NCBI GenBank assembly: GCA_000442125.1
Contig: KE546977.1
Location: 124,001-188,000, forward strand
Length of the DNA stretch: 64,000 bases
Reading direction: 5' to 3'
Source: Opeltia flavorubescens
Taxonomy: Eukaryota; Ascomycota; Lecanoromycetes; Teloschistales; Teloschistaceae
The notes under the pieces are model-generated. The model was not told where the DNA came from and made no database searches. It worked only from the letters and a program-made list of their open reading frames with translations. Shown here piece after piece: positions 7,229 to 33,369 of this stretch. The translations under genes and the position numbers were made by a program. Every line of letters begins with the position of its first letter. The stretch's first letter is position 1.

Positions 7229-8003
7229 GGAGAGTGCGCCAGGTAAAAGTTTTCTACGGCCGTATTCCCAAAATTGGTTACAGGAACTCTGTCTATGGTG
7301 CATTAAATATTTTCTTCGATGAAGCGGCGAGAGAAAGGAAAGGAGAGGGGATATATCGTTGTTGCAACATGGGAGGCCTAAAATTCAGTCCTGCGGGTTT
7401 ATTATAGTAAGCTTCCTGGGCTGGTTATCTCCCGTAATAGGGTATTCTGTTAGGATCTGCGATATGAAGGGGATACCTAAGGTGTCAATGTTTAGCAGCT
7501 CTTCGCCTATTACGTCTCGGGTAGTGGATATACATGCTTGTTCCCTGAAGTTATGACATGGATTGCATTACGATACGGAAGTGATTGATATGATCTTCGT
7601 ATCTACATTATATGTCTTTCATTCTTCCTTCTCTGCAGCATAAATATCTTATCTAGAAGTCTGCTACAAAGGCTTAAGGAATCACTATCCTTTATGTTAG
7701 TAGCTATACGCAACCATCCATCGCATTCAAGTTTTGTGTAGAATTCTCTTCTAATTTGACACAACGGTTTTTACGCAGGCGTGAAACCCCTATTCGTAGG
7801 CTTGAACGGCATAGCTGTTGCATCTCCAGATGAATTTCCTATGATATAGATCTGATTAAATCTTGACTGTATTCAAAATATACAAAACTCTGTCTTCAAT
7901 CTACCACCCAGATTGATAGAACATCAGCGCGCCCGCCCTCTCATTCCCTTCGCCGTCTCTCCTCCATCACCTTCTGTCTACCCACCTACCCGCTTCAACC
8001 AAT
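7229..8003. other. intergenic, convergent gene ends
   Basis: No gene recognised. It lies between the 3' ends of the Cys-rich gene (+) and the MACPF gene (-). The open frames here have no protein-like composition. Confidence 0.5.
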
Positions 8004-25352: not shown

Positions 25353-26882
25353 GAAGGCGTGCGTGAGAGGATGAGGGAATACATTGGGAAGGGGATGGGC
25401 TTCAAAGAAAAGGTTTGCATGCAGAGAGTAGATAAAGGGAGAGGAGGCAGACAGAAAATTGACTATCTACACTATATAGGGTATCTTCCCACGATTGCCT
25501 TTCCTCGTGAAACAACGCGAGGGGAAAATCGAAAGTCAATATCGATAATGATTTCCTTCATCTATATTCTATTCTCCTTGAAAGAAAGAAGGGGCCGTCT
25601 ATCAATCCATATCCGCCATTTCCACAAGACCTGCCCACTTACAGAAAAAGTTCTTTGTCTACATATCCCCTCCCTCCCTGCCTACTCATGCATCCATCCA
25701 TCCAAAACCCATCGCCATTCATGATCTCATTCCTTTCATCCTCCCCTCTTCCCTGCCCTCTCTACTAGTTTCTCCTAAGTCCTCCAGTCCGCTCTCTACA
25801 TCGAAAAATAGAAAACTTTCTCAGCTCATCCCCCGTAAAAAATCGCACAACGAGATCCTCATCTCGCACACCATTCCAACTCAAAGTTTTCCTACACTCT
25901 CTTAGACCGAATAAAAGCAAGCTCCTCGGCTCCTAACATCACCATAAACCTCCAATTAAGGGGAAAAAAAAAAAGAAGAAGGGAGGAAGATCTGCACAAC
26001 ATACTCATACTCATAACATACCACTCATATCAAGCGCCCATTCCACATCCCAAACGACCAAAACAAAACCCTCATTCAATCAATCGAAAAACTCAATCCC
26101 CACAGGGCCTAATAAATTCCGAAAAACCTCATCCTCCGCAGAAATCCTGTTTCCTTCTTCAAGACATACATATCTATATAACCCGTCTCAATCAAACACC
26201 CACCTCCTACAAATACTAACAGCCGAAAAAAAAGCAATTCGGCCTGGCGCAACAAAATGAACAATGAACCAATTTTTACATCGCCTCTTGAACAGAAGAA
26301 AGCCTACACCTACGAATAACTTAGGGTTACTCCTGCCGTAAATGTATACTATATCGATATCTCGCTTGCCATCATCTGCAATAAATTGGGTCAGTCGCCA
26401 GCAGCTGCCGTCCGTTCCAGTAGTGAGTGCTCCCTGATCAAGAAGTTAGCAAGAAAGAAGTCTCATACTAATTATGTGCATATATTCAAGAATCCAGTAC
26501 CAAACAAACATGAGGTTTCTAGGTATATGTATTATCGATGGGTTCGATGTGCGTCGAGTGGTTAATTTCTTTATATATACAGCGCGCGCTCCAAATTCTC
26601 CTTCCTGCGCTTTTGGCCGAACGAGTAAAGTGATTCCTTGAAGTTCTACCATTTTGATTAAATACGAGTACCCATGATACACGGCTCTTATCGAGTCAGA
26701 ACCAACGACACCGATATCTTGGCCCCCCCCTCCCCTCTATAGCCTTCAGAACTCGCCCTAAAATTATAATCAGCGTCCGGTAGAGCTTAAGAAAGCCACG
26801 TTCACTCGTAGAGACAAAATGATGAATCCGGAACAAAGAGTAGATGAGCGCAGCATACCATGGCCATATTCGAATCGCCTTA
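25353..26882. other. long intergenic, pyrimidine-rich, no gene seen
   Basis: About 1.5 kb of C/T- and A-rich sequence with no convincing frame on either strand. It probably holds the 3' UTR of the CHRD gene and untranslated spacer. Confidence 0.45.
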
Positions 26883-27086
26883 TTGGAGCGCTCGAACAGC
26901 TTGATGCAAAGCTACCACAGAGGACAAGCAGGCAGTATTGATACTCATGCTTGGACCCGATGAATTGCAGAGATAACTTAAACTACTAGCAACCATACAG
27001 CTATCAGTGCCAGTCACGATGTAGCCGGGAGTAATCCCTGGGCCCTGAGCCATGGCTGTATGATAGTCGCTACCCTCAATACCCAT
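26883..27086 (-). pseudogene. polyketide synthase KS-domain relic, active-site part
   Basis: A 68-residue frame covers the KS region just after that encoded at 23674-24025: GSDYHTAMAQ, then TPGYIVTGTDSC, SLSYLCNSSGPSMSINTACL and SSVVALHQAVRALQ. The active-site motif is NTACLSS instead of DTACSSS; the nucleophilic Cys is kept and one Ser is replaced. The frame stops straight after ALQ. The strand is opposite to that of the N-terminal piece. Confidence 0.8.
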
Positions 27087-27405
27087 GCGGATCAGTCATC
27101 GTAGCGGCCGCGGATGGAAAATCGACATGCCAGTGAAAACGGCAGTATCAAGTTTAATGACTTTCTGGAGAGGTATACCGGCGTTTTCAAGGCGGTTGAG
27201 ACAGTGATGATGACTTCTCGCTGTTTTTCGTAAATTGCCTTCCAGCTTGGCAGCGGAGAATCTTAATACCTGGGTGCCTCCACAATTTCTGCCCTTCAAA
27301 GCTGAGAGTAAGAGCCTAGTACCTGTACAAGTCGTTATATCGAGGGAAGAAAGACATTGTCTCATGTCCCGAGACTTTTTCGACGAAATAGGAAAAGATC
27401 CTCGC

Positions 27406-29678
27406 TCAGCATTTGAGCGCGGTCTGAACCATCTTCTCTTGAACTTGCTTCCAAGCATTCCGAAACTCGATCGAATCCAGACAATTGGTCACATAACAAT
27501 GCAATTTCCCTGGTGATCTGTGGTCCAATTCCGCAAAGCGGTCCGCCCAATACCGGCAAGCCTTGAAATAGTCCGCACCGCCTTCATAGTCGGGAAAATA
27601 ATCAGTGATGGGATGTCGAAGGATCGTCCGCTCGAAGACGTCAGCCTTGTTGAGGAAAAGGAACACCGGGAGGCTTTCTACGAAGACGTTATTGATGACA
27701 CTCTTGAAAACGCAAAGGGAGTCCACCATCTGATTCTGCAAACCGTATACTTAGGAACTGATAGCTTTGCTCGGCATAGGGAAACCCGACTTACCGCATT
27801 GGGGTCTTCCACCAGGTTCTGACAATATCCATTCAAATCGACCACATAAATCAGGTAATCCGGTTGGTCTGCCATGCAGTGTATCCATTTCCTTCGGCAA
27901 GAGCGCGTTCCGCCGACATCGTATATCTCGACTTCGAAGGAATTGGTGGCGATATTCGATTTGTATATCCCCGTGGTTTTGATATGCATACAGAGGTTGG
28001 CAATACAGGCATGGCTTGGTGTGCCCCAGAATATGTCAACAAGGTTGTCCATTATGCTAGGTTTGATTTAGCAAATGGCGTATACGGATAAGTGGATGTG
28101 TCAACTGACTAAGGGATGTTGTTGGGTGTCTGAGGCCATACTTTGGCATTGATTGCCCATTTGATTTCTTGTTGCTTCCACAAATGATTGAAAACCACGA
28201 GTGCCCCATCAAAGTACTCCTCTTGTGGCATTGTGTCCTTAAGAGAGCCGTGTAAGACAAGAGAATACTGCAATTCAAGATCAGACTCTGTAGAGCATCT
28301 CAAGCAGGACAGCTCCGCCATTGCTTACCTGAGAAAGTAGGTCAAAGGCTTCCCCATGGCTGTCTCTGCCACGCTTGTCTATGCATTCGCTGAGTACGCG
28401 CCTGAAAGAGTCGATTACTGCTGTCCGGATGACTGTGCGAGCTTCTTCCAATTCAACTGGAGTTGGCTTGATTCCCTGCATCAGCTGAAGCTGTTTGAGA
28501 ATNGTCGACTTCCCCGCATTCGAAATACCTAACATCGCACAAGATTAGCTTTGATCGCAGATAAGTCCCGACCCGTACGCTCCAAAATCGAGAAGCTTCA
28601 ATACACATACCCAGAATGAGGATCTTGCTACCAGACCGAGATATTGAACCGGACTTATGAAATAGATCAGGCGATACGCATCTTTGTGCCAGAGGTTCCC
28701 TGTACCGTTGACCATTGAAAAGAGAATGGGCTGCCACGGGCAGCGAAACCAAAGAGATATTGGAGACATCTGCAAGACTCAAGCCGGAAAAGAACGAAGA
28801 CCCGATTGAGCAGCTCGAGGAAGAAGGTAGTGACAAAAGGTCTGGATCCGACCTGCGGACTATGGTCCTGGAGACTCGTGTGTAGACGCGAGACTGATGG
28901 AGATCTTTGTCGAAGGAGAAGGCGTAATCGGACCTCCCCTCAGCAACTCCGGTCACATCGCCGTAAGCGCAAGAATTCCTCTTGGGTTTTAGGGCGGATG
29001 TATCATCATCGGTCAAGTCAAAGCTTTCGAGCGCAGACGGAGCACTTTGGTGCTTCAATTGGATTGAAAGATCCGATCTTTCGAGGCGACGGCAAATTTC
29101 TTGATTATGCGTGAGGACATCACGGACAACCTTGGTGAGGGATTGGATTGACTGCTGAGCTTCATCCAGGCCGGCGCTGGACACATCGAGGATCAGTGAG
29201 CTCATACCTTCACCATTGAGAGCTTCATGGGACGATCACTCAAGACTGACCATGACAGAGTCGTTAATATCAGATTCAGCGAGAGCTTAGACGATTGCAA
29301 CCTCTGCAACAGCCTCGAAATAGTCGGTTCTTTAGCAATCCATTTCAACCTGCTACCAAAGAGCATAGAATTCCGAGCCCTCAACCCATCCAAAGCATCT
29401 TCGAGCTCCGAAAAGGTCATGACGGTATGGGTCAAGATAATGCAAAACTGATCAACCGTGATCAATGCCTTCCTCGACCTCAAATTCGATGTCCCGGACA
29501 AAACCAATTCCTGCATTCGTTGAAGACATAGCTTCAGATCCTCGACTTCAGCGATGACACGGCGTGCTAGTCTTGGTGCATCCTTGACGCCGTGGACAAG
29601 ACCTGTCAAGAGTTCCGAGACCTTGGCTGCCGCTCCCAGCAGACCGAGGATGGAGGCGGATACAGAGATCGGATCCAT
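27406..29678 (-). CDS. PigL_N-type NLR N-terminal domain fused to a GTPase-deficient G-alpha domain
   Basis: Start chosen at ATG 29678 (MDPISVSASILGLLGAAAKV), the typical opening of the PigL_N domain of fungal NLR-like proteins; an in-frame Met at 29858 would only add a basic leader. PigL_N spans about 210 residues and splices (GTCAGT..CAG) into LSCAGLDEAQQSIQSLTKVV. A Ser-rich linker of ~150 residues follows. Then comes a complete G-alpha fold: P-loop ILILGISNAGKST (the Thr codon is ACN at the N of 28503, so Thr regardless), an alpha-helical insert, switch I HIKTTGI, switch II YDVGGTRSCRRKWIHC, FLNKADVF (NKxD) and a diverged TCAT loop (TNCLD). The catalytic Arg of switch I is His and the catalytic Gln of switch II is Thr, so it should bind GTP but hydrolyse it poorly. 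There is no N-terminal myristoylation Gly and no usual C-terminal receptor tail (ends ALKC). Confidence 0.8.
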
Positions 29679-30412: not shown

Positions 30413-31504
30413 TTACCTTGGGGATCCATCATATGGAGTCTTCACACCGTTCGTCGTCGCAACAGGGACTTTTGGCGGTGCCTCGAATCTCGTCGTCCTT
30501 GATGCCCGTGGTGTACTCGGAGAACTCTCCGCACGTGGTGTGCTGGCATCGCCACCCAATCTTGGTGTACTGCTCCCCACACTTCCACTCATCCCTCTCT
30601 TCATCATTCTCCCGAGTAGTTGTACCATCTCCGCAGCATCCTCGAATTGATCATCGTCCATCCCCTCTTGTGCCATGTAAACGTCTTTGATCGCTTGCTG
30701 GGCCACCAGCCGTGAACCGTCGGCATCATGCAGGCAATCGTACATGTACGCCGCATACTCGGTCTTGACAGATAAGCGAACCGGGTTCGACCCGCCGAGT
30801 AGAGTGTCCGCTAACGCAGATGCTTCAGTGAAGCAAGCCGTAGCCCTAGGAACATAATCGGTAGCTGCGAGAAGGAAAGCGGCTGCAGGCTTGGCAACGG
30901 CCACAGGCGAGAGACCTGGTGGCAGAGGCTGGACTGGTCCACCTTTGAAAGGACTAGGTGAAGAGCCCATTGACGATCTATCTGCAGCTTTGCCCTTATT
31001 GCTCGATGGTGTAAAGCTCGGAATGGCGGTCTGGTGGATGGATGGTTGATTGTGGAAAAGGACGAAAATATGGTAGAAGCTGGCGCGGAGTTTGTAGGAG
31101 AGAACCTTCAGTTCGGCAAGATTCTCGGACACCATAGGAATAATGTATTGTTCGATCATGATGAGCCCTTCTCTTGAGAGCCATATTATGTGATGGTACA
31201 ATTGTAGTGATTTGGTGTCCCGAGTCGTATCGAGCTTGCGCAGTCGGCGAGCACGGATAAGCTTTTTGGAAAGGAGGACGGAAAGACCGAGAACTTTGTA
31301 GAGGAAGGACGAAAGGAAAGGATTCGAGTTGTTTGTTCGCTTGGCGAAGTGACCGAGAAATTTCTGATCGACCTCCGAAGAGGCCATCAATAGGAGGTAG
31401 TTGTAGTCGGCGAGGTCCTGAAAATGAAGAGCTTCAGTGTCAGCCAGACCTGGATAGATATCCATTTTCACGACGTGAATTTGCGACATGTTGTTGCAAT
31501 TCAA
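30413..31504 (-). CDS. 14-3-3-like protein with disordered C-terminus
   Basis: A single exon of 363 residues; the second Met (MSQIHVVKMDIYPG, near 31489) is an equally good start. The helical 14-3-3-like region includes ASSEVDQKFLGHFAKR, SSFLYKVLGLSVLLSKKLIR, LYHHIIWLSREGLIMIEQY and LSYKLRASFYHIFVLFHNQP. This is the divergent fungal type, not the canonical ~260-residue 14-3-3. A second helical half covers ATDYVPRATACFTEASALAD to DVYMAQEGMDDDQFEDAAEM. The last ~60 residues are Ser/Pro/Thr-rich with several S/T-P sites. Canonical 14-3-3 proteins bind phosphoserine clients; whether this divergent type does is not visible here. Confidence 0.75.
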   Translation of the reverse strand: MNCNNMSQIHVVKMDIYPGLADTEALHFQDLADYNYLLLMASSEVDQKFLGHFAKRTNNSNPFLSSFLYKVLGLSVLLSKKLIRARRLRKLDTTRDTKSLQLYHHIIWLSREGLIMIEQYIIPMVSENLAELKVLSYKLRASFYHIFVLFHNQPSIHQTAIPSFTPSSNKGKAADRSSMGSSPSPFKGGPVQPLPPGLSPVAVAKPAAAFLLAATDYVPRATACFTEASALADTLLGGSNPVRLSVKTEYAAYMYDCLHDADGSRLVAQQAIKDVYMAQEGMDDDQFEDAAEMVQLLGRMMKRGMSGSVGSSTPRLGGDASTPRAESSPSTPRASRTTRFEAPPKVPVATTNGVKTPYDGSPR

Positions 31505-33369
31505 AAACGATAAGTAGCACGATCATGAAGTTTGCAAGAAAAGAATCCTAGCATGTCGAAAAGTATCACCAAAACAGGCAGCGCCATGAACAGTTCATTC
31601 ACGCAATGTTGATTTGATCAACTTACTTGTTGTCACCCACAACCACACCCCCTCCGGTCACAAAGTGTTCTCTTCTCCTCTTCGTATGTCTATCGCTTCG
31701 GTTCAATGGTTGTAGGTGGTCGTTGTGACTATGTGTCGAGTTCGGAGTATGCATGCTCGAGGTAGCTTCTTCTATAGCTGGGTTGGAAGTCGATGATGGT
31801 CAATGACGAAGGCGTTGCCAATGACAGGCTGAGCTTGTATGTTTGGTATGTGATTCGTGGCTAGGTCAGGTTTTGGGCAGAGCTAAGGATGGTAACATCC
31901 GATTCGAAGGAATTGATGCCGTAAGCGCCACGATACTCTCAGGAAGCCCAACGACGACAGTCGATCGTCTGAAGGAAGGGAGACTTCTAGTGAAGGGAGG
32001 CTATTGCACGTGGATACTAAAATGACATGCTTCTCAAGCCATCAACATCTGCACGATCGATCATTGAAGATGTCGTACCTTTGTAGAGATATCCTTACCG
32101 TGTTGTCGGCTTGACCTGAACCATAGAACCCAATGTAAAGACAACCTTTTGAAGAGAAGAGGCCAATACTCGGAGAAGTAGGATGAGGTATTTTGTGGGT
32201 TGGCAGGAGAGAAGATTTTCGCGATTGAAGAGCTATGGACCGGCAATTGCAAACTTGGGAAAAGGTCGGAAGCTTGGACGACAAATTTCCCCAGATCCTA
32301 GTCGTGGATCGGCAGGAAGCTCCCAGAGCCGCAGAGGCTAGAATCCGCCACAAAATTCGACCGTTTTGTACACATGAGATGACGATTCGAAGAGCGTGTT
32401 GTGAGATATCCACTGCAGGACGACCGAGGATGTATTCAAGAGCTGGGCTTCGGGTCGGAATGAAAGGACCGCTCCACGGAATAAGGTATGTACGAGTGAG
32501 GCACGACTGACAACACAGAGGAAGCGGAAGTCAGAGTAGTAGTCGGAGGGTGATGCAATTGCAGCGGTGTAGAGGACGGCATGTTGGCAAAATTGGGACG
32601 GAGGAAGTGTTCGTGGGAAGATTAAGGTTGTGTGGGATTTCGCTGGTCCTGCATGAAGCGTGCATACGTGTCAGACGGACGCTTCATTTCCCTCGTTGTA
32701 GATCCCAGCAGGTTGCCTTAGCCGATAAGCTATCGAAGCTTTCCAAGCCATCGAAAGGTTGGAGAGCCGACCGAGAGTCTAGATTGAAAAAAAGTGCGGC
32801 GGACTGAGGATGATGAATTGGCACAAATCAAAGACACGGTAGAAATTGGTGAAAGTCGAAAGTCGCGATAGACGGATCCAAGAAACAACGGAAGGAGCGG
32901 TGACGATTGGGTAAAAAGTGGAGTTGTCGTTATGCCTGGTCGGGGATGGCTTCGGACCGGGTTGGGCTGAAAGGCTTGCATGTGGAAGGGGCGACTGAGA
33001 GGCCGAAAAGCATGGGTATGGAATACCTGGTTAGACCAGTAGCAGGCCTGATTAGGATTCTATGATGGGTTTAGCCTTTGGCGTCCATGTTACGTTAGTC
33101 ATCAAGTCTTTACCTTCATGATTCCATTCCCAACTTCCTTCCGTCGCGTCCATTCTGACATCCTTACCAACACCCACCTCTGCAAATGGTAAGACCATTT
33201 ACAATACCAATTTCCTTGGCATCGATCACGTGAAAGGTTGGATACCGGTTAAGTATCCACGATCACACTTTTGCATGACCATTGTACTCTGTATCAACAG
33301 CAAAGACAATAGCAATCAATGCATAAACCTGTTTCATTGACCGTCCACTGTAATCTATCTGACCGTCGC
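31505..33369. other. long intergenic, probable upstream and 3' regions
   Basis: About 1.9 kb between two minus-strand genes. Open frames (such as 32042-32413 minus) lack protein-like composition and conserved motifs. It may hold a long 5' leader of the 14-3-3-like gene. Confidence 0.4.

Follow-up and report, generated by a model that had tools for sequence, protein, structure and literature searches.

G-alpha proteins rely on a switch I Arg and a switch II Gln for GTP hydrolysis, and loss of either residue is usually an activating mutation. Departures from this scheme are already known, including extra fungal G-alphas that have lost the Gln and plant GTPase-poor G-alphas with N-terminal extensions (the latter described in PMC8584482 and PMC13185490). 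Here we describe a gene of the lichen-forming fungus Opeltia flavorubescens whose G-alpha domain lacks both residues and is fused to a PigL_N domain. The window analyzed is a stretch of 64,000 nucleotides of contig KE546977.1 (C13:124001-188000) in an assembly of 34.4 Mb and 23 contigs. On balance, the protein is probably a GTP-binding, hydrolysis-impaired G-alpha switch tethered to a HeLo-like bundle, in lichen-forming Lecanoromycetes.

Each part of this architecture has partial counterparts. GaoC, the fourth G-alpha of Aspergillus flavus/oryzae, is described as having Ser in place of the DVGGQ Gln, as having lost its P-loop glycines, and as probably inactive (PMC5869405). It is likewise an extra fungal G-alpha with the Gln replaced, but consists of the G-alpha domain alone. 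Among small GTPases, Rnd1-3 and RhoH have neither a Gly12 nor a Gln61 equivalent, and the Rnd proteins are reported to remain GTP-bound (PMC8305018); none has a helical domain or a fused bundle. Plant XLG2 is described as acting in defense (PMC8584482, PMC13185490). The XLGs are plant-specific, carry a Cys-rich region and a nuclear localization signal in an N-terminus where no PigL_N has been described, and are analogues only. The PigL_N family, PF17111, is Helo_like_N, listed among the N-terminal domains of NLR proteins (PMC9815663). HELLP, HELLF, and fungal NLRs with a HeLo-like N-terminus share this domain (PF17111, PMC9815663), but amyloid motifs or a STAND NTPase control them, and they have no G-alpha. 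A fungal precedent linking G-alpha to cell death is MOD-D, a G-alpha named among the mediators of incompatibility (PMC1325252).

A spliced gene joining PigL_N to a G-alpha domain

The predicted gene lies on the minus strand, from an ATG at 29678 to a stop codon ending at 27406, and encodes 647 amino acids with no internal stop (Table 1). Its six exons are separated by five GT..AG introns of 74, 82, 61, 53, and 59 nucleotides. The initial annotation had read one spliced gene joining PigL_N to a full G-alpha, and the protein is indeed laid out as PigL_N, linker, and full G-alpha domain. PigL_N covers residues 1-170 (E 1.7e-7, 31.2 bits against a gathering cut-off of 27.2), and PF00503 is nearly complete over residues 324-638 (E 7.6e-60, 203.2 bits against 48.8). 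The G-alpha fold, with Ras-like and helical domains, is recovered. Among solved structures, the sequence matches Galpha-o best and Galpha-i next. Only G-alpha, Arf, and PigL_N pass the Pfam cut-offs; the scan found no NACHT or NB-ARC STAND NTPase and no repeat family that could form a C-terminal sensor, and the G-alpha domain is the last of the protein.

A misjoining of two neighboring genes, or a decaying pseudogene, is very improbable. The frame is open across six exons, ten relatives of 600-665 amino acids carry the same fusion, the joins are mostly conserved, and the functional residues are invariant. The two GTCAGT introns (29250-29177 and 28109-28057), doubted at first, give joined peptides that agree with most of the ten relatives, which are deposited gene models. 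The exceptions are a gap in P0013 and P0018 at the first join, and a gap in P0011 and a different peptide in P0016 at the second. What favors an artefact is that many relatives' models are truncated and that similar pipelines may underlie the deposited models, which would then be not fully independent. The one ambiguous base, at 28503, falls at the wobble position of the P-loop Thr codon (ACN) and leaves the residue as Thr in every case.

Catalytic residues lost and nucleotide contacts kept

Residue equivalences use Galpha-i1 numbering, with the catalytic pair at Arg178 and Gln204. The motifs stand as initially annotated: P-loop GISNAGKST, switch I HIKTTGI, switch II DVGGTRS, and NKAD, which together supply all the nucleotide-binding elements (GKST, switch I Thr, DxxG, NKxD). 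The catalytic Arg is replaced by His475 and the catalytic Gln by Thr501. The P-loop also has Ser at the Gly42 position, which is that of Ras Gly12, and Asn at the position of Glu43, a residue that contacts Arg178 in G-alpha. The protein shares the PF00503 domains and binding motifs (DVGG among them) of canonical fungal G-alphas but has lost the Arg, the Gln, and the P-loop Gly and Glu. PigL_N and the linker replace the usual N-terminus, TNCLD stands where a canonical G-alpha has TCATD or similar, and the C-terminus TALKC lacks the usual tail. The genome's three canonical G-alphas read G[AS]GESGKST, Arg, and DVGGQ, and keep all four residues.

Protein searches each scored the 7994-7995 candidates with the most shared words. 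The N-module is common to 36 of the 78 matches of the family search (P0001-P0036), most of them labelled G-alpha, and database records of relatives already carry both Pfam labels. The closest named proteins are from Gyalolechia (Teloschistaceae, Lecanoromycetes) and Loekoesia, with 66-71% identity across 70-87% of the query; the other genera among P0002-P0035 we take to be Teloschistales. A search with residues 1-325 of the Usnea relative P0036 recovered the module with G-alpha in further lineages, and the fusion sought in other fungi is found in Teloschistales and in Usnea, Cladonia, and Dirinaria, which are Lecanoromycetes outside that order. That the fusion is unique to this gene is rejected by these 36 matches and the additional ones of the P0036-based search.

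The catalytic losses extend through the family. From a residue table of the query and P0001-P0035 (36 rows), 13 rows with a truncated or misaligned switch region were excluded. Arg and Gln are both absent from all 23 remaining rows (the query and 22 of the 35 relatives), with His (19) or Tyr (4) at the Arg178 position and Thr (11), Ser (11), or Ala (1) at that of Gln204. The same loss in all 22 relatives with aligned switches rejects a read error or chance and contradicts the prospect, raised in the initial annotation, of a correction restoring both residues. A P-loop is present in 30 of 36 rows; in these the Gly42 position has Ser (26) or Ala (4), and the Glu43 position Asn (26), His (2), Ser (1), or Gln (1). 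GKST is present in 30 of 30, a count largely built into the selection: rows were accepted only with Thr181 and Asp200, and P-loops only with Gly45, Lys46, and Thr48, and counts at these positions are no independent evidence. Gly203 is kept in 23 of 23 aligned rows and Gly202 in 19, with Ser in the other four. Of the 21 aligned rows that extend to NKxD, 20 keep it. The remaining one is P0001, a relative with 92% identity in which the final stretch reads a different frame of the query's last exon, through a different splice or a frame error. Ala326 of the TCAT loop is replaced by Ser in 14 and Cys in 4 of the 21 aligned rows reaching it (P0001 being one of the Cys rows), and the crystal structure of the Galpha Ala326Ser mutant, 1bh2, is among the structure matches listed.

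A less circular test of conservation is the A1 alignment of 11 complete models, whose ten relatives were picked for length, from the 36 family matches, after the motif table had been seen. Eleven nucleotide-contact positions are invariant in it (domain average 1.25 bits), and none of 20000 random sets equalled that.

Outside the Teloschistales clade the losses take other forms. P0100, the nearest outgroup, keeps the Arg and has lost the Gln (DIGGV). At the Arg position, P0081 has Cys and Cladonia borealis P0102 has Ser; P0081 also reads NFDGK, and P0102 reads DTGSG and THLD. Dirinaria P0106 has lost GKS as well. The Opeltia genome itself holds a second fusion, the C8 paralogue (L009 2585-4734, minus strand), a spliced gene of 679 amino acids with the motif FAFDAEIFRSKVY. 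Its G-alpha domain scores 105.6 bits and lacks GKS, DVGG, and NKxD, making it a pseudo-G-alpha; its N-terminus matches no Pfam family and is weakly PigL_N-like (E 0.24 by the family profile).

In a tree rooted by midpoint and containing several long branches, P0100 groups with the Teloschistales clade; this grouping has moderate support (86/81), and the clade on its own has 100/99. This branching, with the Arg kept, suggests that the Gln was lost before the Arg. As to a single origin of all fused G-alphas, the tree as it stands needs two changes, and only 1% of 200 bootstraps place the fused set on one side of a branch, though its well-supported branches are compatible with one origin. Both P0102 and the C8 paralogue place nearer the canonical G-alphas, on long branches.

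Table 1. Features of the fusion gene, in window coordinates
Feature	Position	Strand	Basis
Whole gene, 647 aa, six exons	27406..29678	-	splice model; joins compared with ten relatives
Exon 1, most of PigL_N / HeLo-like domain, residues 1-143, predicted four-helix bundle	29251..29678	-	Pfam PF17111; AlphaFold
Exon 2, PigL_N end, linker, first base of first P-loop Gly	28611..29176	-	splice model
Linker motif KHQSAP, residues 184-189	29038..29055	-	comparison with relatives
Linker motif DLHQSRVYTR, residues 234-243	28876..28905	-	comparison with relatives
Linker motif SGLSLADVSNISL, residues 273-285	28750..28788	-	comparison with relatives
Exon 3, remaining P-loop GISNAGKST (residues 332-340), helical domain start	28329..28528	-	splice model, motif table
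Exon 4, helical domain	28110..28267	-	splice model; predicted structure of relative P0003
Exon 5, switch I and switch II	27795..28056	-	splice model
His475 at catalytic Arg178 position; switch I HIKTTGI 27966-27986	27984..27986	-	alignment to solved G-alpha
Thr501 at catalytic Gln204 position; switch II DVGGTRS 27900-27920	27906..27908	-	alignment to solved G-alpha
Exon 6, NKAD (27640-27651, residues 567-570), TNCLD, C-terminus TALKC	27406..27735	-	splice model, motif table

A putative GTP-loaded switch and its alternatives

The invariant contact residues and the family-wide catalytic loss point to a G-alpha that would bind GTP and be impaired in its hydrolysis, which lends sequence support to a hydrolysis-impaired switch of the kind initially proposed, in which GTP may be trapped or slowly hydrolyzed. 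The C-terminal domain would bind guanine nucleotide and Mg, would hardly hydrolyze GTP, and would reside mainly in the GTP form. Changes at Ala326 speed GDP release in G-alpha, and the Cys or Ser of most relatives may do so here. From the established biochemistry of G-alpha and, as described, of Rnd proteins (PMC8305018), the GTP-loaded state is most likely. Given slow or no hydrolysis, control would have to lie elsewhere than in an RGS-driven GTPase cycle: in abundance or expression, in a binding partner, or in phosphorylation of the Ser-rich linker. By analogy only, the G-alpha may present or restrain the N-terminal HeLo-like four-helix bundle, which would work by oligomerizing or by membrane contact.

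Several observations weigh against such a switch, and most of them would suit a nucleotide-independent pseudo-G-alpha scaffold, whose fold is a docking surface and whose occupancy is irrelevant. XLG2, whose layout is comparable, is described as probably carrying no nucleotide in vivo, and XLG2 unable to bind GTP as still working in defense and development (PMC8584482). P0081, P0102, P0106, and the C8 paralogue, each without at least one of GKS, DxxG, and NKxD, stay long open proteins, which suggests that some members of the broader architecture can do without nucleotide binding. The TCAT loop, which contacts the guanine, is changed in the clade and could weaken binding. Lastly, the helical-bundle matches of the PigL_N model are non-specific. 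We nevertheless consider the scaffold unlikely, as free drift is not expected to keep the eleven contact positions invariant in all 11 A1 models, nor NKxD in every aligned row reaching it but that of P0001, which is read in the other last-exon frame. The invariant contacts argue against XLG2-like independence here, although the altered loop leaves some room for it.

The few residue types at both catalytic positions, and the RGS-domain matches present in the genome, would also fit a normal switch whose active site is completed from outside by an unusual GTPase-activating protein (GAP). Rap1 naturally has Thr at the Gln61 position, and RapGAP provides the missing groups. Such an arrangement is improbable for the Opeltia protein, since Gly42 and Glu43 are changed too, which should impair hydrolysis further, and no GAP candidate was identified.

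The N-terminal domain bears on what a GTP-loaded switch might control. AlphaFold predicts a four-helix bundle for residues 1-142, with a mean predicted local distance difference test score (pLDDT) of 77, and the first helix is hydrophobic (Kyte-Doolittle 1.63). Foldseek with this model returned no match with E <0.001, and the HET-S structure is absent among the matches listed, which excludes nothing. Two patterns for the PP amyloid motif found none, HRAM and sigma motifs being outside that scan. A four-helix bundle next to a pseudo-enzyme domain recalls MLKL by layout, but MLKL is an animal pseudokinase and the fold match here is non-specific. That the protein is an MLKL-like immune executioner, with a pseudo-enzyme G-alpha holding back a lethal HeLo-like bundle, is compatible with the GTP-loaded switch and, in our judgment, rather unlikely.

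The linker is Ser-rich and has pLDDT mostly <50 in the predicted structure of P0003. Its K/R-x-x-S-A-P stretch, which resembles a 14-3-3 site, occurs in most Teloschistales relatives and not in P0081, P0100, P0102, or P0106. Less exact versions of the DLHQSRVYTR and SGLSLADVSNISL motifs are present in PigL_N paralogues that have no G-alpha. A 14-3-3-like open reading frame (30413-31522, minus strand; PF00244 32.9 bits, just below the cut-off of 33.2) lies ~0.7 kb upstream of the gene, and any tie between it and the linker stretch is speculative.

Genomic context and meaning

The N-module also occurs with other partners. Its three own-genome relatives, at C8:857k, C2:2372k, and C13:1469k, fall below the PF17111 cut-off and match the family profile with E 1.4e-32 or better. 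Three genes of the genome are nearest by N-terminus: one continues into LIM domains and two have no G-alpha match; no same-strand NACHT match lies beside them, other downstream frames being outside the Pfam scan, and none lies within the window. On C2 (L047 2008-3843, minus strand), a PigL_N-related exon with the same linker motif precedes a same-strand LIM-domain frame. At C13:97.3k (L050 812-2146, plus strand), PigL_N is followed by an NPHP3_N/NACHT-type NTPase (NPHP3_N 127 bits; NACHT 24.3 against a cut-off of 26.7). This NLR-like protein lies ~54 kb from the gene, beyond the window, and together with the listing of PF17111 in PMC9815663 it bears out the initial view of PigL_N as an NLR-type domain. 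The shared N-domain is what speaks for the suggestion of the initial annotation that the G-alpha may stand in for the STAND NTPase that activates an immune protein; relatives of the N-module are also paired with LIM, CRIB, and NACHT-type partners.

Among the relatives, P0103 (Geoglossum simile) has PigL_N and linker fused to a P21-Rho-binding (CRIB) domain, another GTPase-signaling partner. In P0025 and P0034 (Teloschistes), the fusion model continues into a carboxylesterase-type domain (PF00135), either a further fusion or a run-on into a neighboring gene. In the window, ~0.3 kb past the stop codon, a beta-ketoacyl synthase fragment (26880-27095, minus strand; PF00109, 46 bits) is perhaps a polyketide synthase remnant.

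By title or start of abstract, no paper on a PigL_N/HeLo-like-G-alpha fusion appeared among the top full-text matches, in a coverage outside which most subscription journals fall. As a clade, the family lacks both hydrolytic residues and retains the nucleotide-binding ones, and its switch sits on a domain familiar from cell-death and NLR proteins. It would offer a naturally GTP-locked G-alpha for study and a possible evolutionary series, from Gln lost with Arg kept, to both lost, to nucleotide binding lost. It also allows a direct test of whether G-alpha signaling feeds HeLo-type cell death in fungi. That the protein is a cell-death or non-self executioner of lichen fungi, its HeLo-like bundle held by a GTP-loaded, hydrolysis-dead G-alpha in a manner both MLKL-like and XLG-like, is distinctly unlikely as matters stand. 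If true, it would tie G-alpha signaling directly to regulated cell death, as a GTPase equivalent of MLKL and an equivalent in fungi of the XLGs, and the fusion would be a Rosetta Stone for the role of MOD-D in Podospora incompatibility.
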